Positions 247-10,347 of a stretch of DNA of 10,347 bases are shown here, piece by piece. The stretch is taken from the NCBI GenBank assembly GCA_002686955.1, contig NYZA01000203.1, positions 1 to 10,347 on the forward strand, written 5' to 3'. A program made the translations under genes and the position numbers. The notes beneath the pieces were generated by a model. The model searched no databases, was not told the origin of the DNA, and was given only the letters and a program-made list of their open reading frames with translations. The DNA is from Gemmatimonadota bacterium. Lineage in GTDB: Bacteria > GCA-2686955. The first letter of the stretch is position 1. The number at the start of each line of letters is the position of its first letter.

Positions 247-2691
247 ATGGCCCCATCAGCTTTGCCCGCTTTCAGGCGGTCGTGGTTCATCGCCGCTCTC
301 GTTGCGCTGGTCGCCGCGGGTGTGGTGCCGCTGCTCGGCTGCGATCGGCCCGAGGCGAATCGGGACATGAAACCGCTCGCCGCGCTCGTGCGACCCGGTG
401 AGCCGCTCCCCGATCTGATCTCCTCTCGGCTCGCCGCATCGCCAGAGTGCGTGCGGCCAGGAGCTCCGCTCAACTTGACGATTCAGATTCCCGGTGGCGC
501 GGGATGGCCCGACTCCGCGATCTTCATCGAGCGGAACGGGCTGCGCCTCGACAACGAATTGATGATCGAGCATCGGGCCGATTCGACGATTGGAACGATC
601 GGAATCGACGCTCCAACCGAGGAGGGGGACCATCTCTTCACGCTTCGAGGGCGTAGCCACAACGCGCGCGTGGCGGCGCACGCGATGGTCCATGTCAGCG
701 CCGCCGGAGCGTGCGCCGAAGGAGAGGTCCGAGAGGTCGGCCGTTGCGTGCCGGTGGCGGAGGGACACCACATTCGGCTCACTCGCGGCGTCAATGTCAA
801 CAGCCGGGGTGGGGACCGCTATGCGCAGGGCCAGATGACCCATCCGCGAGCGGCGCTTCTGATCGACGATGTCATCGTTGCCTGCATGACCGACGCGATC
901 GGACTCATTCCGGTCGACGAGCTGCCGGAGGTCGGCAAGTCGGACAGAAGCGTGGCCGAGGGGCTGCGCTCGAGGTTGGTCGAGACCCTACTGGAAGAGA
1001 GCGGCATCATTGCCAGCGAGAACTTCCTGGTTCTTCCCCAGGAGCGGATTGTCATCACCTCGTCCCGCGGAGCGGACTGGACGACGAAGGGGGGACTGGC
1101 GAGCTGGCGGCTGCCGCCCCTCGATGTCCGCCCCCTCGCTCCGCCTCGTCACATCTCGACCCTCGGCGGCTCGGGGGGATTCGAAGGCCTGACCCGCTAC
1201 GGGGACAAGATTTACGCGGTTCGCAAGCCGAACGCGATCGCGGTGCTGCACCTCTCGGATGAAGGCGAGCTGGTTTTGGAGGAAGATGTCGTTGTGCCCG
1301 ACATGCGGGGTGTCTGGGCCATTGAGGCCGGCGAGAACCGGTTGTTCGTGACCGACGCGACCGGCGACGGGCGCTCCGAGGTGGCGGCGGGGCGGCTTCA
1401 CGTATTCAACATCGGCGACTCCGGCTCGCCTCGCCTGCTCGGCTCGGCTCGAACTTCCGGCACGCCCAGAGATGTCGAGGTGCTCGGCGACGAAGTGGTG
1501 GCCGTCGCCAACGGCGCTCTGGGGATCGATCTTTTTGACGTGTCGGACGGAAGAGATCCGATTCTGATCCAGCGGGTCGAAACGCCGGGATCGACCATGG
1601 GGCTCTCCTTCGACGAGGGGTATCTGCTCGTAGCGGATTGGGACAGCATTCGTCTCTACGACGCCTCTCTCCGGGGTCGGCTGAGGCTCCTGGACGGCGT
1701 CGACGCCTTTCACCGATCGTTCGGAGCTCTCGGTGGAGGATTGCCAATCACCGGCCTCTTCGCCGCAAGCTTCGTTCACCTGGACGGCGGACGTTTCATG
1801 GCAACCGAGTTCAACGTCCTGCTCACGGGCACGATTCAGCCGGGGGCCGGCGACGCTCGATTGATCGTGCACGACCGCGGCATCAGGCTGGGCGCCGGCG
1901 GGGAGGAAGACGTGCCGGTTTCGGTCCGTGTATCGAACGGGGGCCGGCGCCCGCTCGACCTCTATCAACGAGGTATGGGGCTCAGCCGGGGTGGCGGGCC
2001 CTGGTCGGTGGCCCCGGGAGCCACGGCGAAGCTGGACCTTCGTGTCGCGGGAGGACAGGCCGTCGAAGGGAGCAGGAGATCGGCACTGGTTCTGCACTCC
2101 AACGACCCCCGCAGAAGGCGGCTTCGGATACCAGTGGTTCCGCCCGGCGGGTTTCAGCTGGGCGACCGCGTTCCCGGCTTCAGACTGCCCATGATCAACC
2201 TCTGCGCTGACGGATCGTGTCCAGAGCGAAGCGGCTGCTTCGACCTGGATGACGAAGTAGCGAAAGGGCGCCCGATCCTGCTGGCGGCCTTCGCGTCTTG
2301 GTGACCGATCTGTGGTCTGGAGGTTCCGGATCTCATGAGTGCGATTCGCGACGAGTTCGGTCCCGACGAGGTGACCGCGGTCGCGATCAACTGGAAACAG
2401 CAGCGCGAGATCGTACAGAAGTTCATCACCGACACAGGATTGCGTGCGCCGGTGCTGATCGATCTCGGCCAAGGCCTCGATCCTGTTTGCTTCCAGCTTC
2501 CGTCCGGTCCGGAACCGACCGTGACTGAGCATTTCCGCAACAGAGTGTTCACGCCGGGGTTCAACGCGCCTTTTCCCTTGCAGGTCATCGTCGACACGGA
2601 GGGCCGATTGGCGTTCGCGAGCCGGCGGCATTCGACTGAAGAGGTGACGACAGTGTTGAGAGAGCTCGTTCGAGCGCAGGCGAGCGAGTAG
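247..2691 (+). CDS. Multidomain lipoprotein with C-terminal thioredoxin-like selenocysteine (UxxC) domain
   Basis: Predicted exported thiol/selenol oxidoreductase of 814 residues, with the in-frame TGA at 2302-2304 read as Sec686. The ATG at 247 is chosen because it gives a classic lipoprotein signal: R10-R11, a hydrophobic core (13-30) and lipobox LLGC with Cys32. No clear Shine-Dalgarno precedes it. Order: Ig-like region (about 62-155), an uncharacterised region, a beta-propeller-like part with LVIVD-like repeats (about 304-484), a HYDIN/Ig-like domain (about 537-633), then a thioredoxin/AhpC-TSA-type domain (about 635-814). The last holds W685-Sec686-P-I-C689, a plausible cis-Pro777 before a 'LQVIVD' strand, and a preceding cluster C653, C658, C664. 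Frame continuity past the TGA and the fit to the fold argue against a true stop. The alternative is a recent nonsense mutation or a protein ending at 2304. First gene of a tight four-gene operon. The redox partner is unknown. Confidence 0.85.
2302..2304 (+). other. In-frame TGA predicted to encode selenocysteine (Sec686)
   Basis: The TGA occupies the first position of the CxxC-type redox motif. The upstream frame reads ...A-A-F-A-S-W, typical of the strand leading into a thioredoxin-family active site, and the downstream frame reads P-I-C-G-L-E-V-P-D-L, typical of the following helix. The frame then stays open to 2689-2691. A stop falling by chance on exactly the residue most often replaced by Sec in this fold is unlikely. 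Decoding would require SelB, SelA, SelD and tRNA-Sec, none of which is in the window. Confidence 0.85.
2311..2335 (+). promoter_or_regulatory. Candidate bacterial SECIS element
   Basis: The upper stem TCTGG (2316-2320) pairs with CCGGA (2326-2330), with one G-T wobble, and closes the five-base loop AGGTT (2321-2325). The stem extends outward through G2315-T2331 (wobble), G2314-C2332, a T-T mismatch, G2312-C2334 and T2311-A2335. Sixteen bases separate the TGA from the apical loop, and a G lies in the first two loop positions. Both agree with the bacterial SECIS model as I know it (apical loop G, roughly 16-37 bases from the UGA). An SD-like GGAGG (2319-2323) lies inside the hairpin, 11 bases before an ATG at 2335, so a minor internal restart cannot be excluded. 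Confidence 0.7.
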
Positions 2692-2706
2692 GAGCCCACC
2701 GAGAGA

Positions 2707-4278
2707 ATGAGATCGCTGCGAATTTCGACGCTCCTGCTGCTCTGTTCGGCGGCATGCGATCGGATCGATCCCGTGCCCCTTGATGACCGATCCGCGGCGG
2801 CCGAGCCGCTGATATGCTTCGAGCTTCTCGACGCCGGACGTTCAGGAATCGATGGAATCTACACTTGGGGGGTCGCGATCAACGATTTCGATCGGGACGG
2901 TGATCAGGACATCTTTTTCGCAACCCGAAAGCCGAACGTTCGCGGCCCAGAGATGGCGCGCCGAGATCTACTCTATCGAAACGACGGAGATTTGACCTTC
3001 TCGCGCATCGGCGGAAGGCGCGGGATACGGCGGCGCTCGATGGCGCAGGGAGCGGTATGGGGTGATTTGAACGGCGACGGATTCGACGATCTGTACGTAA
3101 CGACTTTGCGCGGGAGCCCAAATCGACTCTATTACAACAACGGTGATGGGACCTTCGTGGAAGCCGCGAAAAGGGCCGGCGTAGGGAGCTTGGTCTTTGG
3201 GAAGGGCGCATCACTTGCCGACGTCGATGCTGACGGTCGACTCGATATCTATGTTGCGAACGCTTTGGTTGGCCGTGATGGGCGAGAGGGCTATCGCGGA
3301 ATCCCGAACCAGTTGTTCGTGAATCGCGGAGAGCGAAGATTCGTCGACATGGCGAGCGCGATCGGTGTGGAAGGACTGGATCGCGGTGAAGGCTACAACG
3401 GGGGCTTCTCTGATCTGAATAACGACGGAATCCCGGATCTCTTGGTGACGAACGACTATCGCGAAGACCAACTCTTCGTCAGCGATCGTGATGAGAAGGG
3501 CGGAGCGGCAATTGCCTTTCGACGGAGACATGTGTTGACCCATCGATCCGGAGCCATGGGGGTAGCTTTTGGCGACTACGACAACGATGGGGACTTCGAC
3601 TTCTACTTGACCAACTACAACCCGGATATACTCTTCGATAATGTGAACGGTACGATGTTCAATGACGTTAGCCGCGCTTCGGGAATCCACGAGTACACCC
3701 GCGATGTCGTGGGTATGGGGGCGGCGTTCGCGGATCTCGACAACGACGGTGATCTGGATCTCTGTGTATCGAATGGGCAAGTCGATTCCATCGAGCCCCA
3801 GCGGAATGCGATCTTCGAAAACCTCGGGGAGGGTTGTTTCGCGGATATCACCCCCTCGGCCGGCCCGGGTTTGGCGGATTTTCGGCACAGTCAAGGTCTT
3901 GCGGTGGGCGATCTCGACAACGACGGACGGGTCGACGTGGTCGTGGGAAACGATGATGGCTCTGCTCCGAGTATCCTGATCAATCGAACAGCGGATGTCG
4001 GAGGATGGGTGCGTCTTTTGCTCGTAGGGCGTGCTCCCAATACGAGTGCCATCGGTGCCAGAGTGTCACTGTCCTCCGGAGATCTCACCCAAGTGCGAGA
4101 ACGAAGGGCCGGCACGAGCTACCTTTCCTGCAACGAGAACGTGCTTCATTTCGGTCTCGGTGACTACGATGGGACGAGCCGCGCCCGAATTCGATGGCCC
4201 GACGGATCGGTGTCGGAGGAGGGCGGCCTGAAGCCCCGGTCGACCGTCACGATCGTTCAGCCGGATCTAGCGGAGTAG
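2707..4278 (+). CDS. FG-GAP/VCBS repeat protein with C-terminal ASPIC/UnbV domain (CRTAC1-like), putative lipoprotein
   Basis: A 523-residue exported protein of the CRTAC1/UnbV-like family. The N-terminus (R2, R5, then a Leu-rich core) ends in SAAC with Cys17, a slightly off-consensus lipobox. Seven calcium-binding-type D-x-D/N-x-D-G-x-x-D motifs recur at about residues 60, 120, 172, 237, 290, 343 and 402, as in an integrin-type FG-GAP beta-propeller. Residues about 438-518 match the ASPIC/UnbV domain: 'SAIGARV', 'AGTSYLS', 'HFGLG', 'RIRWPDG'. The start lies 15 bases after the preceding stop; GGAG overlapping that stop and GAGAGA before the ATG are possible SD sequences. The biochemical role of this family is poorly defined; surface binding or adhesion is inference. 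Four cysteines (37, 353, 377, 475) besides the lipid Cys and Cys13 could be clients of the upstream oxidoreductase, but this is speculative. Confidence 0.88.
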   Translation: MRSLRISTLLLLCSAACDRIDPVPLDDRSAAAEPLICFELLDAGRSGIDGIYTWGVAINDFDRDGDQDIFFATRKPNVRGPEMARRDLLYRNDGDLTFSRIGGRRGIRRRSMAQGAVWGDLNGDGFDDLYVTTLRGSPNRLYYNNGDGTFVEAAKRAGVGSLVFGKGASLADVDADGRLDIYVANALVGRDGREGYRGIPNQLFVNRGERRFVDMASAIGVEGLDRGEGYNGGFSDLNNDGIPDLLVTNDYREDQLFVSDRDEKGGAAIAFRRRHVLTHRSGAMGVAFGDYDNDGDFDFYLTNYNPDILFDNVNGTMFNDVSRASGIHEYTRDVVGMGAAFADLDNDGDLDLCVSNGQVDSIEPQRNAIFENLGEGCFADITPSAGPGLADFRHSQGLAVGDLDNDGRVDVVVGNDDGSAPSILINRTADVGGWVRLLLVGRAPNTSAIGARVSLSSGDLTQVRERRAGTSYLSCNENVLHFGLGDYDGTSRARIRWPDGSVSEEGGLKPRSTVTIVQPDLAE

Positions 4279-4287
4279 CCGAACAAT

Positions 4288-6444
4288 ATGCCCACAGAGG
4301 CACAAGTCGATTGGAGCGAGCTTCTTCGATTCCCCTGGCTGGTGCCCTTCGCCATCGTGTTCTTCGCATGGCGGGTGGGCGGATTGCTGCAGGACGGGAG
4401 CGTTTGGGATCGCCGAGCCACGGTTTCGCGCGCAGGTCCCCCGATCTGGGCTCGTCTCGCCGTGGTGGCGGCCGCACTGGTCGCCCTCGCCATGCGCCTC
4501 TATCGCATCGGGGCGGAGCCGATGGACCTGCTGGAGTACACCTACTACTTCATGTCGGCGGGGCGGAGGAGCATCGCGGATCTCCTTTTCGCGGAGATCT
4601 CGATTCAGCAAGCGCATCAGCCGGTTCCACATCTAATCTTGGCGCTGCTTTCGCGTGTGTCGGCGGGGAACGAGGGCTGGATGCGGATCCCCAGCGCTTT
4701 GCTCGGCGTCGCGGCGATTCCAGTGGTGTGGACCTGGGCGCGAGAGATCTTACCGGGGCGGGAGCGGATCGCGGTCGCTGTGGCGTGGCTCGTCGCTCTA
4801 CACCCGATCGAGATCTGGTACGGCAGAGATATGACTCCCTACGGGCTCTTCGCGCTTCTGGCGGCGGGGTCGTACCTCTTTCTTTGGCGGGGCCTGGAGC
4901 GTGGCACCCACTGGCGCGCATTCGTGCTCGTCTCCGCGATCAATTTCTATGTACAGTACTACGAGATCTGGGTACTCTTCTCGCAGATCTTGTTGGTCTC
5001 CGGCTACGTACTCTTCGCGAAGCAGAGACCCCGCCCGTGGTACGCCGCTGGTCAGGCGGTCCGAGCCATGGCGATCTGGTCGCTCTGCGTCACACCCTGG
5101 CTCCCCTTCTTCTTCAAGTCGCTCACGCTCGGCTATGCGTCGCTGAATGCAACCGGTCCCGCGTACTCCGCCGATCTGACGCTGCGTCATGCTCTGAACG
5201 AGGGCTACAGGCAGATGATCGGGTTGCCGCCCGCGGCCTGGGGATCGGCGGTGCTCGTCTTCGCGGTGGCGATTCAGGCGCTGGGTGCCGGTACTCTGTG
5301 GCGCAGGCACCGGGCGGCGGCGATCGTTGTTCTGACTCCGATTCTGGGGGGGGTGCTGACCGAGCTGCTCTTTTATTGGAAGCTCCACAGCCTGACCGAT
5401 GGGTACTACCTACAGATTCGCCACTACATCTACATCGTGCCCTTCAGCGCCATACTGCTCGTGACTGGAGTCGCGCAAGCAGCCCGACCATTCCATGCAC
5501 TTCGCCCACGACTGGCGGAGGTAGCGATCGCCGGGCTCACGGCTGCGATGGTCGTGGCGCAGCTCGCCTACGGCCGGAGGATCATCACCGGGGGGCAACG
5601 GAGCGATGTGCGGGAGATCGTGCGCTCGATCCGCGCGAAGCTCGAAGACGGTGATGCCATCGCTCTTCTGCCTGCTTCCTTCTACAGTCACCTTTTCAGC
5701 TACTACTTCCTCGAGCCGGGGGAGCGAGGGGATGATCTCTTTGGCTCGGAGGCGTGGCGACGTCTGCGACGCGCCGATGGGCGCACGGCGATGATCTACT
5801 CTCCCCTCACGGAGCACCGATTGCCCTATCGATACGGTGCCGAGAACCTCTTCCTCTCGCGTCTTTGGATCGTGCATTTCCAGGAGGAAGTGCTCGATCT
5901 TCGCAAGTTCGGAGACGCGCCCTACGAGGAGCTGCTGGCGAGCCTGAACCCCAGCCGGTCTCCGCTCGAAACGATCGAGGCCGACCGGATTCGGGCCGAC
6001 CTTATTCAGCTCGATCAGCGGCGCGAACTTCCCTGGACCGATGATCGGGTGGTTCTGGACATGCAGCTGATGGACACCGAGCACGCCTGGCTCACGCGTA
6101 GGAGCCGAGATCCCGATGGCCAACATCGCATCGAGCTCAGAGTGCCGGTCGGGCGGATCGATACACATTTCGAGCTGAGCTACAGGATGCGCTGGGAGAG
6201 CCGGAGCTTCCTTCCTCCGAGGAGGATCAAGGTCGATCTTCTCGCGGAAGGGCGACGGATCGAACGCTTTGCGTTTCAGGAATCGGAGGGCGTACGAGAG
6301 CTGAAGATCCGCAGGGAGCTGATCGAGGGGGATTCGATCGATCTGGTCTTCCGTACCGACCGCCCCCTCTGGTTCAAACAGCCACCCTTCCCTCTGGAGG
6401 AGGGGTTTACGCTCGACTGGCTGGTCCTGGAGAAGCTGCGATGA
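4288..6444 (+). CDS. GT-C family (PMT/ArnT-like) polytopic glycosyltransferase
   Basis: A 718-residue integral membrane protein that probably transfers a sugar from a polyprenyl-phosphate donor to a lipid or protein on the outer face of the inner membrane. After an N-terminal membrane segment (about 16-33) comes a second (about 56-73), then the loop 'EPMDLLEYTYYF', whose Asp80 and Glu83 occupy the position of the catalytic acidic pair in PMT_2-type enzymes. 'HQPVPHLILAL' (110-120) corresponds to the usual H-P-P motif, and 'ALHPIEIWYGRD' followed by 'PYGLFALL' matches the family's hallmark after the fourth or fifth helix. About 10-12 membrane segments run to residue 428. 'RHYIYIVPF' (378-386) fits the late conserved motif. 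The remaining 290 residues are a soluble, probably periplasmic region rich in predicted beta strands. It starts 9 bases after the previous stop, with GGAG at 4272-4275 as a possible SD. The substrate is unknown; the adjacent lipoproteins are conceivable acceptors. Confidence 0.8.
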   Translation: MPTEAQVDWSELLRFPWLVPFAIVFFAWRVGGLLQDGSVWDRRATVSRAGPPIWARLAVVAAALVALAMRLYRIGAEPMDLLEYTYYFMSAGRRSIADLLFAEISIQQAHQPVPHLILALLSRVSAGNEGWMRIPSALLGVAAIPVVWTWAREILPGRERIAVAVAWLVALHPIEIWYGRDMTPYGLFALLAAGSYLFLWRGLERGTHWRAFVLVSAINFYVQYYEIWVLFSQILLVSGYVLFAKQRPRPWYAAGQAVRAMAIWSLCVTPWLPFFFKSLTLGYASLNATGPAYSADLTLRHALNEGYRQMIGLPPAAWGSAVLVFAVAIQALGAGTLWRRHRAAAIVVLTPILGGVLTELLFYWKLHSLTDGYYLQIRHYIYIVPFSAILLVTGVAQAARPFHALRPRLAEVAIAGLTAAMVVAQLAYGRRIITGGQRSDVREIVRSIRAKLEDGDAIALLPASFYSHLFSYYFLEPGERGDDLFGSEAWRRLRRADGRTAMIYSPLTEHRLPYRYGAENLFLSRLWIVHFQEEVLDLRKFGDAPYEELLASLNPSRSPLETIEADRIRADLIQLDQRRELPWTDDRVVLDMQLMDTEHAWLTRRSRDPDGQHRIELRVPVGRIDTHFELSYRMRWESRSFLPPRRIKVDLLAEGRRIERFAFQESEGVRELKIRRELIEGDSIDLVFRTDRPLWFKQPPFPLEEGFTLDWLVLEKLR

Positions 6445-6968
6445 GCCCTTCCTCCGCGCGTCTTCGTCGTGAGCTGGTGCTCCTGTTCGGGACCTGCTTG
6501 GTTGCCGCTCTCGCCGGATTGACCCATTGGAAGACCGCCGTCCATCCACGGCGCCCGGCCCTGGCTTCGGTTCGCGCCGCGAGGATCAACCCTCTCGATG
6601 TCGAACCCGAGGTTCGGCGAACGGTGCGCCGCAACGCGCCCGATGCCTTCGTGCTCGAATGCGATCTGATCGAACCGCTGCGCGGCGAGTCTTACTACCG
6701 ATTCATCAAGTCGGACCGAAGGCGCCGCTGGACGCTGCGCGTGGCGAAGGACGGAGAGCTCATCGGAGGGATCTGGGAGCTGAAACCGCTTTCCGTGGAT
6801 GAGATTCCCCGCCGCGGTCGACCCCCGGCGCCGGAGCCGGGAACCCCTCCCTTGAGGGCCTGGCACGCTGCCCGGGCCGATTCCTCGATCTACATGATGG
6901 CCGGGGTTTCGCCCGCCGATGTACTCATCGAGTGGCAGTGGGAGGCGACGAATCGACGGGATCGATGA
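6441..6968 (+). CDS. Small membrane-anchored or exported protein of unknown function
   Basis: A 175-residue protein I do not recognise. The N-terminus carries basic residues (R7, R9, R10) and a hydrophobic stretch (about 12-27), which could be a signal anchor or an uncleaved signal peptide, so the rest is likely periplasmic. The body is Arg-rich with a Pro-rich segment near 125-140 and ends in a hydrophilic tail. No catalytic motif is evident. Its ATG overlaps the glycosyltransferase stop in an ATGA arrangement, the usual sign of translational coupling, so it probably serves with that enzyme, for example as an accessory subunit. That role is inference from position only. The overlap and the shared strand support it as a real gene, even though no family supports it. 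Confidence 0.65.
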   Translation: MSPSSARLRRELVLLFGTCLVAALAGLTHWKTAVHPRRPALASVRAARINPLDVEPEVRRTVRRNAPDAFVLECDLIEPLRGESYYRFIKSDRRRRWTLRVAKDGELIGGIWELKPLSVDEIPRRGRPPAPEPGTPPLRAWHAARADSSIYMMAGVSPADVLIEWQWEATNRRDR

Positions 6969-7143: not shown

Positions 7144-8010
7144 ATGAGCCAGATCGTCAGAAGTGGCTTGATTCAGTGTGCCAATCCGATCAATGACGAA
7201 AGCGTTCCGGTCGCCGAGATTCAGCGAGCCGCGCTGGACAGGCACATACCCTTCATCGAAGAGGCGGGGGACCGGGGGGTTCAGATCCTCTGCCTGCAAG
7301 AGATCTTCAACGGCCCCTACTTCTGCCCCAGCCAGGATATCCGCTGGTACGACGCCGCGGAGCCGGTGCCCGGGCCGACGACCGAGATCATGCAGGGGTA
7401 CGCCAAGCGATACAACATGGTCATCGTCGTGCCGATCTACGAGAAGGAGACGCGCGGCGTCTTCTACAACACCGCGGCGGTGATCGATGCCGACGGCACC
7501 TATCTCGGGAAGTATCGCAAGCAACATATTCCGCAGACTTCGGGGTTCTGGGAGAAGTTTTTCTTCAAGCCCGGAAACGGCGGATACCCGATCTTCGAGA
7601 CCAAGTACGCCAAGGTCGGTGTCTACATCTGTTACGACCGGCATTTTCCGGAAGGGGCCCGCTGCTTGGGTCTGAACGGCGCTGAAATTGTGTTCAATCC
7701 TAGCGCGACCATCGCCGGACTGAGTCAGTACCTCTGGAAGCTGGAGCAGCCAGCCCACGCCGTGGCGAACGGTTACTACCTCGGTGCGATCAACCGTGTC
7801 GGCACCGAGGCCCCGTGGAATATCGGCAAGTTCTATGGAACCAGCTATTTCGTCAATCCGAGGGGCGAGTTTCTCGCCGAGGCATCGGAGGATGACGATG
7901 AGCTCGTCGTCGCCGATCTCGATCTGGAGATGATCGACGAGGTTCGCAAGGTCTGGCAGTTCTTCCGCGATCGTCGTCCCGACGCCTATCCCGAACTGCA
8001 CAGGCCGTAG
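7144..8010 (+). CDS. Nitrilase-superfamily amidohydrolase, probable beta-ureidopropionase
   Basis: Probably hydrolyses N-carbamoyl-beta-alanine to beta-alanine, CO2 and ammonia, the third step of reductive pyrimidine breakdown, in the cytoplasm. The 288-residue length fits a bare nitrilase domain. The Glu-Lys-Cys triad is visible: Glu53 in 'LQEIF', Lys126 in 'YRKQHIP', Cys163 in 'ICYDRHFPE', with the accessory Glu137 in 'GFWEKFFF'. 'LNGAEIVFNPSATI' and 'AINRVGTE' closely resemble the eukaryotic-type beta-ureidopropionase (UPB1/PYD3), which separates it from N-carbamoylputrescine amidases and plain nitrilases, although N-carbamoyl-amino-acid substrates in general cannot be ruled out. A strong SD, AGGAG, ends six bases before the ATG. 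It is the first gene of a three-gene catabolic run, 18 bases ahead of the transporter. Confidence 0.87.
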   Translation: MSQIVRSGLIQCANPINDESVPVAEIQRAALDRHIPFIEEAGDRGVQILCLQEIFNGPYFCPSQDIRWYDAAEPVPGPTTEIMQGYAKRYNMVIVVPIYEKETRGVFYNTAAVIDADGTYLGKYRKQHIPQTSGFWEKFFFKPGNGGYPIFETKYAKVGVYICYDRHFPEGARCLGLNGAEIVFNPSATIAGLSQYLWKLEQPAHAVANGYYLGAINRVGTEAPWNIGKFYGTSYFVNPRGEFLAEASEDDDELVVADLDLEMIDEVRKVWQFFRDRRPDAYPELHRP

Positions 8011-8028
8011 CCGCGAGAGGGGAGGAAC

Positions 8029-9486
8029 ATGACGTTCCGGCCCGATCCTGATCTGATCAACGACGATATTCGTCCCGTTCCGCCGGAGGAGCGGACCTGG
8101 TCGGTGCTCAGCATGGCCTCGCTCTGGGTGGGCATGGTCGTCTGTGTTCCCACCTACATGCTCGCGGCCGGATTGATCGAACAGGGCATGAGTTGGAGCC
8201 AGGCGATCACCACGGTCATGCTGGGCAATCTCGTGGTGCTCTTCCCCATGGTGCTGAACGGCCATCCGGGTGCCAAGTACGGCGTGCCCTTCCCGGTCCT
8301 CGCCCGGGCATCGTTCGGGATCAATGGTGCGCATCTGCCCTCGATCCTGCGGGCTCTTGTGGCCTGCGGATGGTTCGGAATTCAGACCTGGGTCGGCGGC
8401 TCGGCGATCTACCACCTGCTGAACGGCCTTTTGGGTGTAGAGATCGGCGGCGCTCCCTTGCCCCTCCTCGGAATCAACGCCGCGCAGGCACTTTGCTTCT
8501 TGTTTTTCTGGGGGATTCAACTCGTAATCGTCTATCGCGGAGTCGAATCGATCCGGCATCTTGAGCTGGTCGCCGCGCCCTTTTTGATCGTCATGGGGCT
8601 CGTGTTGCTCGGCTGGGCGTATCTGAAGGCAGGCGGATTCGGCGAGATGCTGCGCACCCCGAGCCAGTTCGTCGCCGGTGGCCCTCGCGAAGGTGAATTC
8701 TGGAGCGTTTTCTTCCCTTCATTGACCGCGATGGTCGGCTTCTGGGCGACACTTTCACTCAACATTCCCGACTTTACGCGCTACGCTCGAAGCCAGCGTG
8801 ATCAGGTGTTGGGTCAAGCGATCGGTCTGCCCACGACCATGACCCTTTTCGCCTTCATCGGAGTGGCAGTCACCAGCGCCACGGTGACGATATTCGGCGA
8901 GACGATCTGGGATCCGACAGTTCTGCTGGGGAGGATGGGGGGCGGGTTCGGCGTGCTGGTGTCCCTTTTGGCGCTCAGCATCGCGACACTTTCCACCAAT
9001 ATCGCCGCCAATGTCGTCTCGCCCGCCAACGCCTTCATCAATGTGCGTCCCCAACGGATCACGTTCAGGGTGGGCGGTCTGATCACGGCCGGTCTCGGCA
9101 TCGCGATTTTCCCATGGAAGCTGCTCGAGACCAGCGGCGGCTACATCTTTACCTGGCTGATCGGCTACTCGGCGCTCCTCGGTCCGATCGGGGGCATCCT
9201 GATCGCCGACTATTTTCTGCTGCGCGCAACCGAGCTCGATCTCGAAGGACTCTATCGCAAACAAGGGCCCTACACATACACCAAAGGCTTCAATCCAATC
9301 GCCGTGCTATGCCTGATCGTGGCGATCGTCCCGAATCTCCCCGGCTTTCTGCATGCCGCCGGCATCGTGAGCGACGTGGGCGCCACGTGGCAGCGCATCT
9401 ACACCTACGCCTGGTTCGTCGGGTTCTTCCTGGCCGGCACGCTCTACTGGGTTTGCATGAAAGCCACGTCGTCGATAGAAAGGTGA
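8029..9486 (+). CDS. NCS1-family nucleobase/hydantoin:cation symporter
   Basis: A 485-residue inner-membrane transporter of the nucleobase:cation symporter-1 family, about 12 membrane segments, which would import uracil, dihydropyrimidine, hydantoin or allantoin with Na+ or H+. Residues corresponding to the Mhp1 substrate site are recognisable: Trp115 and Gln119 in 'CGWFGIQTW' (Mhp1 Trp117/Gln121), Trp239 in 'GFWATLSLNIPDFTR' (Mhp1 Trp220) and the 'STNIAANVVSPAN' segment at 322-334 (Mhp1 Asn318 region). 'GHPGAKYGVPFPVLARASFG' (78-97) is the family's N-terminal signature. Length is typical. A good SD, GGGAGG, lies just before the ATG. Placement between a beta-ureidopropionase and a malonate-semialdehyde dehydrogenase favours a pyrimidine-type substrate, but sequence alone does not fix the ligand. 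Confidence 0.9.
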   Translation: MTFRPDPDLINDDIRPVPPEERTWSVLSMASLWVGMVVCVPTYMLAAGLIEQGMSWSQAITTVMLGNLVVLFPMVLNGHPGAKYGVPFPVLARASFGINGAHLPSILRALVACGWFGIQTWVGGSAIYHLLNGLLGVEIGGAPLPLLGINAAQALCFLFFWGIQLVIVYRGVESIRHLELVAAPFLIVMGLVLLGWAYLKAGGFGEMLRTPSQFVAGGPREGEFWSVFFPSLTAMVGFWATLSLNIPDFTRYARSQRDQVLGQAIGLPTTMTLFAFIGVAVTSATVTIFGETIWDPTVLLGRMGGGFGVLVSLLALSIATLSTNIAANVVSPANAFINVRPQRITFRVGGLITAGLGIAIFPWKLLETSGGYIFTWLIGYSALLGPIGGILIADYFLLRATELDLEGLYRKQGPYTYTKGFNPIAVLCLIVAIVPNLPGFLHAAGIVSDVGATWQRIYTYAWFVGFFLAGTLYWVCMKATSSIER

Positions 9487-9490
9487 CTCC

Positions 9491-10347
9491 GTGTCGAATC
9501 GATTCCCCGCCCGTAGCTACGAATTCACTCCCTACGTCGATTGCCTCAACTGGATCGACGGCAAATGGTCCGCGGCCGAAGATGGCGGAACGATCGAGGT
9601 GATCAATCCCCGCCATGGAAGAGCGCTTGGAAGCGTGGCTCTTTCGGGGACGAACGAGGTGGCGTCGGCTGTCGCGGCGGCGAAGGCGGCCTTTCCGGGT
9701 TGGCGCGACACTCCGCTGAAGGAGCGGGCTCAGGTAATGTTCCGCCTGAAGCAGCTCATGGAGAGAGATGTCGAGGAATTGACCTGGCTCTTGAGCCATG
9801 AAAACGGCAAGGTCTACGTCCAGGCCAAGGGGAGTGTGGTCAAAGGAATCGAATGCGTGGAGTTCGGCGCCTCATTGCCGAACATCGCGCAAGGGCAGCA
9901 GCTCGACGTCAGTCGGGGCATCAACTGTGAAGTCAGCTACGCACCTCTGGGGGTCTGCGCCGGCATCGTTCCCTTCAATTTTCCCACGATGGTCCCCTTG
10001 TGGATGCTGCCCCAGGCATTGACGAGCGGCAACACTTTCGTGCTCAAGCCCTCGGAGCAGGTACCTTACGGAGCCATGAGATTGGCGGAGCTGCTGAAAG
10101 AGGCGGGGCTGCCCGATGGAGTGCTGAATATCGTCAACGGCACCAAACCCGTGGTCGAGGCGATCGTCGACCATCCCGACATCAAGGCGGTCGGATTCGT
10201 CGGTTCGACCAAAGTGGCGAAGATCGTCTACGAGCGGGGCAGCCGCTCGGGGAAGCGGATGCTCTGTCTCGGTGGTGCCAAGAACCATCTGGTGGTCGTG
10301 CCGGAAACCGATCTCGAGCTGACCGCCGAGACCGTCGTTGCGTCGTC
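9491..10347 (+). CDS. mmsA: CoA-acylating (methyl)malonate-semialdehyde dehydrogenase, 3'-truncated by window end
   Basis: Oxidises malonate or methylmalonate semialdehyde with NAD+ and CoA to acetyl-CoA or propionyl-CoA plus CO2; here it probably finishes beta-alanine breakdown. It starts at GTG 9491, four bases after the transporter stop, with AAAGGTGA just upstream as SD; no earlier ATG fits and the next in-frame ATG lies well inside the domain. The 285 visible residues cover the NAD-binding half of an aldehyde dehydrogenase of about 500 residues: 'YVDCLNWIDGKW' near the N-terminus, 'PFNFPTMVPLW' (161-171, oxyanion Asn163), Lys186 in 'LKPSEQ', 'GFVGSTKV' (235-242) and 'LGGAKNH' (260-266), the last being the mark of the MmsA/IolA subgroup. 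The catalytic Cys should lie shortly beyond the right edge and cannot be checked. IolA-type use in inositol breakdown is the alternative; the neighbours favour beta-alanine. Confidence 0.9.
   Translation, partial: MSNRFPARSYEFTPYVDCLNWIDGKWSAAEDGGTIEVINPRHGRALGSVALSGTNEVASAVAAAKAAFPGWRDTPLKERAQVMFRLKQLMERDVEELTWLLSHENGKVYVQAKGSVVKGIECVEFGASLPNIAQGQQLDVSRGINCEVSYAPLGVCAGIVPFNFPTMVPLWMLPQALTSGNTFVLKPSEQVPYGAMRLAELLKEAGLPDGVLNIVNGTKPVVEAIVDHPDIKAVGFVGSTKVAKIVYERGSRSGKRMLCLGGAKNHLVVVPETDLELTAETVVAS

Follow-up and report, generated by a model that had tools for sequence, protein, structure and literature searches.

Positions 247 to 2691 of the window (the whole 10,347-nucleotide stretch of DNA that was analyzed, which is an entire contig, G000:C203) almost certainly form one gene, in which the in-frame TGA at 2302-2304 would be read as selenocysteine (Sec). 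We put at about 96% the probability that this codon is decoded as Sec by the genome's own SelA, SelB, SelD and tRNA-Sec under the direction of a hairpin downstream of it, and that the predicted product is an 814-residue lipoprotein combining a β-propeller, an immunoglobulin (Ig)-like domain and a thioredoxin-like domain. The features on which this reading draws are as follows.

247 to 2691, + strand: selenoprotein gene for an 814-residue lipoprotein with predicted Sec686 from TGA (frame reading, Pfam, paralogue on contig C108, dN/dS)
247 to 342, + strand: putative lipoprotein signal peptide with lipobox LLGC and Cys32 (lipobox pattern; LLSC in the C108 paralogue)
706 to 1851, + strand: β-propeller of LVIVD type, residues about 154-535 (AlphaFold2; WD40/propeller matches with Z of about 24; LVIVD Pfam matches of homologues)
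1900 to 2142, + strand: Ig-like domain of HYDIN/ASH, choice-of-anchor D type, residues about 552-632 (position in P0003 and distant homologues; strands of the model)
2161 to 2688, + strand: thioredoxin-like domain (AhpC-TSA/Redoxin, ResA-like fold), residues 639-814, with the Sec codon inside it (Pfam, PDB sequence matches, model)
2302 to 2304, + strand: TGA, putative Sec codon and first residue of a U-P-I-C redox motif with partner Cys689 (frame; alignments to paralogues and Cys relatives)
2314 to 2332, + strand: candidate bacterial SECIS hairpin, stem GGTCTGG (2314-2320) with CCGGATC (2326-2332), loop AGGTT (2321-2325) (folding, covariation, homologues)
2707 to 4278, + strand: partner gene for an FG-GAP/ASPIC-UnbV protein (Pfam; same gene pair duplicated on C108)

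The TGA is in phase with the ATG at 247 and with the TAG at 2689-2691, 128 codons farther on, and the joined product has 814 residues, with the TGA as residue 686 in the context FASW-U-PICGLEVP, just as a sequence-only reading had described it. Upstream of ATG 247, the frame stays open as far as the contig edge; ATG 247 was chosen as the start because it yields a lipoprotein signal (..VVPLLGC-DRP). Downstream of the TGA, ATG 2335 opens a 118-codon open reading frame (ORF), the headless fragment that the same reading expected from automated annotation. The window has a G+C content of 62%, and 6.4% of all its stop-to-stop runs reach 128 codons or more; how long the frame stays open past the TGA is therefore weak evidence when taken alone, and we rejected it as proof by itself. 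Coding above chance follows instead from homology that spans the TGA, namely the PF00578 match, a paralogue that aligns on both sides and the dN/dS ratios.

The PF00578 (AhpC-TSA) match covers residues 639-742 across the TGA at 32.2 bits (cutoff, 26 bits), PF08534 (Redoxin) exceeds its cutoff over the same residues, and PDB sequence matches are to the thiol-disulfide oxidoreductases ResA, StoA and DsbE. AlphaFold2 modeled the joined protein with a mean pLDDT of 62 (80 to 95 in core domains); the propeller extends to about residue 535, and Ig-like strands and the thioredoxin-like part follow it. The propeller is modeled confidently only from about residue 300, residues 27-286 being mostly of low confidence, and because of this low N-terminal confidence no claim of a fold is made for residues 33-157. 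In the model, a β-strand at 677-682 precedes a helix at 689-703, with residue 686 on the N-terminal side of the helix, a layout that would put U686 at the thioredoxin active site. Foldseek returned ResA matches with TM scores of 0.81 to 0.84 (by target length) as well as propellers; VIA-align, used as a second aligner, put the propeller at about residues 151-535. As propellers filled the VIA-align list, the assignment of the thioredoxin domain is based on matches from Foldseek, Pfam and PDB sequences. A Cys-rich insert, INLCADGSCPERSGCFDLD (window positions 2191-2256), lies ahead of the active site in the window protein and in its C108 paralogue and is absent from other family members.

A search of the same genome with the joined protein found three other loci, each with one internal TGA at a W-U-P-[I/V]-C motif. 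The copy on C108 is full-length and 54% identical across the TGA, which occupies the same codon (LLAAFASWUPICGLEVPDLM); the copy on C27 has GANWUPIC after LVIVD repeats and an Ig-like domain, and that on C66 has FASWUPVC followed by an FlgD-like domain. Between the window gene and C108, dN/dS is 0.28 upstream of the TGA and ~0.22 downstream (0.286/1.33), with most variation at third codon positions on both sides, and by this comparison of sequences purifying selection acts on both sides of the TGA. Homologues align across the TGA, and relatives have Cys at the homologous position; one such Cys form, WCGPC, lies on contig C244 of the same genome. The pattern TGGTGACCNNNNTGY had 12 matches in the genome, of which 8 were discarded as noncoding or as frames with many stops. 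A protein query at the family, class and phylum levels covered a single other genome. The FG-GAP/ASPIC-UnbV gene starts 15 nucleotides downstream of the Sec lipoprotein gene, and the pair (window positions 247-4278) recurs on C108 (L043:4088-8346) with both partners 54% identical, which indicates that the two genes were duplicated together. The C66 paralogue (L042, G000:C66, around 2727-3803) was without a clear signal peptide or propeller; it may be partial or an assembly junction, because its start abuts another gene.

The genome to which the window belongs is a 4.28-Mb metagenome-assembled genome (MAG) that is 84.5% complete, and the Sec-decoding genes selA, selB, selD and that of tRNA-Sec all occur in it. 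The selA match scores 434 bits (E = 3.8e-130), selB exceeds its cutoff and continues in one frame into its C-terminal part, and tRNA-Sec scores 76.9 bits and has a UCA anticodon. The match to selD is full-length and contains an in-frame TGA of its own (AGG-U-ARKLG; L018:1489-2532, G000:C248), with a hairpin, GGACCU-GGUCG-AGGUCC, downstream of it, and on this sequence evidence SelD of this genome is predicted to be itself a selenoprotein. A binning error is possible in principle, given this incompleteness and the location of selA, selB, selD and selC on separate contigs. As only two genomes represent this candidate phylum in the set searched, the window genome documents Sec use in its phylum.

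All four paralogous genes have a hairpin with a stem of 6 to 7 bp and a 5-nucleotide loop (AGGUU, AGGUU, AGGCU and AGUUG) that begins exactly at nucleotide 17 after the TGA. In the ungapped four-gene alignment, 5 of the 7 stem pairs show two-sided, compensatory changes and 93% of cells are paired; none of 500 shuffles matched the covariation score, and sliding the register by 1 to 3 columns abolished this signal. Stems of 6 bp or more at that offset occur at 0.25% of random codon positions in neighboring genes. Synonymous recoding that keeps the protein gives such a stem there in about 3 to 4% of cases, and because recoding yields it at about 4%, the hairpin is weak evidence for one gene alone. 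The window hairpin by itself was no more stable than its shuffles (z = -0.24); shuffle stability thus being uninformative for this copy, register and covariation were used. Published limits for bacterial SECIS elements are a loop of 3 to 9 nucleotides, a stem of 4 to 16 bp, a G in the first two loop positions, a distance of 16 to 37 nucleotides from the UGA and a minimum free energy of -7.5 kcal/mol or lower (PMC13188914). The window hairpin (7 bp, loop AGGUU, spacing of 16 nucleotides, -8.6 kcal/mol) lies within these limits, as do all four paralogue hairpins and the selD hairpin (-7.9 to -11.9 kcal/mol). The checks by sequence that the sequence-only reading had suggested, on homology across the TGA, Cys relatives and the sel genes, all came out in its favor, the conserved hairpin adds to them, and its proposal that the split-looking gene is a single selenoprotein is supported; the four-paralogue set and the many-phylum family described below go beyond it.

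Recoding and termination compete in known systems, and UGA is inherently ambiguous. A dual product that depends on selenium is therefore conceivable: when selenium is scarce, UGA would stop translation after 685 residues and leave a propeller/Ig lipoprotein whose redox domain is incomplete, whereas with selenium available the full form would be made. Residues 33-635 do constitute complete domains ahead of the TGA, but such a stop would fall inside the thioredoxin fold (the domain begins at 639 and the TGA is residue 686) and leave a stub. Moreover, the TGA is kept wherever the domain sits, even in small proteins with nothing else, and there is no evidence of a dedicated switch, so we regard this arrangement as unlikely. 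A nonsense mutation, whether in a decaying pseudogene or between two separate genes, might seem to be favored by the 118-codon ORF from ATG 2335. It is refuted by the TGA at the same codon in C108, in two more paralogues and in more than 100 homologues from several phyla, and by purifying selection downstream of the TGA, and the fragment from 2335 would, according to the model, lack the first strand and the active site; its probability is very low.

Two further readings are even less credible. A lone in-frame TGA cannot discriminate Sec from a genome-wide change of code in which TGA specifies Trp, Gly or another amino acid. However, TGA terminates three other window genes (4288-6444, 6441-6968 and 8029-9486), selA and two of the paralogues, and occurs internally in these genes at the redox site only; the TGA-reading tRNA recovered by a targeted search is tRNA-Sec, and relatives carry Cys at the site rather than Trp or Gly, leaving a change of code a negligible prospect. 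The source is a metagenome assembly, in which TGC, TGT or TGG could in principle have been turned into TGA by a sequencing or assembly error, but the same TGA recurs on four contigs of the genome and in assemblies made independently in many studies, and an error on that scale is scarcely conceivable.

A scan of GTDB genome DNA with the pattern F-A-x-W-TGA-P-x-C-x-x-[E/Q] gave at least 130 matches in at least 114 stretches, which were scored against a profile derived from the four paralogues alone. Among the matches listed, 114 of 130 were profile-positive thioredoxin-like domains; the other 16 were short random frames and were set aside as chance. Of the 114 profile-positive matches listed, 65 had a +17/18 stem of 6 bp or more, versus 0 of the 16 chance matches, and at offsets shifted by multiples of three 0 to 5 of the same 114 had one; about 43% of the distant homologues among the matches listed were without a strong +17/18 hairpin under this simple stem rule. 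As the pattern imposed the motif residues, invariance of the motif is not evidence, but neither the hairpin nor the upstream homology was imposed. At least 45 of the matches listed have 300 or more residues ahead of the motif, and at least 43 loci among them are homologous to the propeller and Ig part of P0001 (the window protein) or P0003; residues 282-809 of P0001, which span propeller, Ig and thioredoxin parts, align to L122 at E = 4.8e-34, with similar results for others and E values reaching down to about 4e-34. The sources are mostly MAGs of Myxococcota/Deltaproteobacteria, Calditrichota, Neomarinimicrobiota, Krumholzibacteria, Zixibacteria, KSB1 and SAR202/Dehalococcoidia. Sampled members have Pfam matches to LVIVD, HYDIN/ASH Ig, AhpC-TSA and FlgD_ig or Por_Secre_tail, and the family layout predicted from these sequences is a signal peptide, an LVIVD-type propeller, an Ig-like domain and a Sec thioredoxin-like domain, often followed by a C-terminal sorting domain. 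Together, the thioredoxin-like scan matches and the shared upstream propeller/Ig part indicate a family that crosses phyla.

The profile was also run on an independent set of 290 genomes, in which the top matches outside the genome itself had TGA at the motif as well and most lower ones had Cys; Cys relatives carry WCGPC, WCPPC or WCPTC. Co-occurrence of the motif with selA in this set (7 of 8 genomes, against 130 of 290; one-sided P of about 0.016) is a weak, post hoc association. One 86% complete genome without a detected selA had a WUPSC TlpA-like gene (L192, G032:C245), which may reflect missing sequence or chance. A Cys version of the complete propeller, Ig and thioredoxin layout was not found in a small sample of ten other large or TGA-bearing matches. 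A search of genome and viral contigs with P0001 alone came back empty because it depends on exact 8-residue patterns; the TGA-motif pattern worked.

Published lists already include thioredoxin-like UxxC selenoproteins with PF00578 (PMC13188914, PMC9312934), among them the Prx-like thiol:disulfide oxidoreductases with UxxC or UxxU (PMC13188914, Table 1; representative WP_010940744.1). Compared by Pfam and motif, the window protein resembles that entry in its above-cutoff PF00578 match and its UxxC (U686-P-I-C689) but differs in that its redox domain forms the C-terminal end of a propeller/Ig lipoprotein of 814 residues. ResA, TlpA and DsbE share the fold and the W-C-x-x-C-x-x-E position; the window protein instead has predicted Sec for the first Cys, extra domains and a Cys-rich insert, INLCADGSCPERSGC, and it scores far below the curated NCBIfam cutoffs for ResA (PRK03147; 26.8 versus 170 bits) and DsbE (24.5 versus 123 bits). 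The ResA-like selenoprotein family WAxxUGC_long (NF041054) likewise has Sec in a ResA-like domain, but the window motif is UPIC rather than UGC, and the window protein scores 19.8 against a cutoff of 300 bits. The HUIPC motif selenoprotein (NF047660) is also thioredoxin-like with UxxC, yet its motif differs and NCBIfam scans gave no NF047660 match. The window motif, FASWUPIC, is likewise distinct from the PxxxTxxC/U peroxidatic motif of typical peroxiredoxins. Upstream, the architecture is that of LVIVD/choice-of-anchor B propellers with choice-of-anchor D Ig domains, whose models, unlike the window protein, describe no redox or selenium domain. No NCBIfam model reached its cutoff in the redox domain of the members tested, and those passing outside it were domain models only (e.g., choice-of-anchor D and Por_Secre_tail). 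In the literature searched, "selenoprotein" and "LVIVD" did not occur together in any paper, an absence there that is no proof of general absence. The PF00578 UxxC catalytic domain is therefore the known part, and what is new is the architecture, breadth and anchoring of a widespread but apparently uncatalogued family. We consider it probable that these proteins form an unrecognized cross-phylum family of large exported selenoproteins, with an LVIVD β-propeller, Ig-like and Sec thioredoxin-like domains and often a surface sorting domain, split at the TGA by standard annotation, and that the Sec domain has expanded in the candidate phylum to four or more copies, some paired with FG-GAP/ASPIC-UnbV genes.

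Judged by homology, the window protein is most likely an extracytoplasmic thiol-disulfide (or peroxide) oxidoreductase or a thiol peroxidase, held by a lipid anchor and acting via Sec686 and Cys689. In this reading, SelA, SelB, SelD and tRNA-Sec would insert Sec at the TGA, guided by the hairpin with its apical loop from nucleotide 17, and the lipoprotein would place its C-terminal active site, Sec686-Pro-Ile-Cys689, outside the cytoplasm. Most likely, the Sec686 selenolate would there attack a disulfide or peroxide substrate, Cys689 would resolve the intermediate via a selenenylsulfide, and re-reduction would come from a thiol donor in the membrane; the propeller would keep the redox domain near its substrate or partner. 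What substrate outside the cytoplasm, or which electron donor, would require a selenol mounted on a β-propeller is the question that this raises. Thioredoxin-like selenoproteins are mostly listed as single redox domains, and the family would add to selenoproteins a large multidomain class that is membrane anchored or surface exported. Gene callers using translation table 11 would break each of at least 43 sampled loci into a truncated propeller protein and an orphan fragment.

Sec thioredoxin domains were also seen elsewhere in large proteins or with other motifs (N-terminal WUGGC in L203, N-terminal WUPSC in L205 and UGSC in L204). SAR202/Dehalococcoidia genomes contain tandem genes for small W-U-P-x-C thioredoxin-like selenoproteins, in pairs about 1 kb apart (L051, L053, L076, L079, L093, L098, L104, L110, L123 and L125). 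Farther along the window, at 7144-10345, consecutive genes for a carbon-nitrogen hydrolase, a cytosine/purine-type permease and an aldehyde dehydrogenase form a putative cluster resembling one for pyrimidine degradation.
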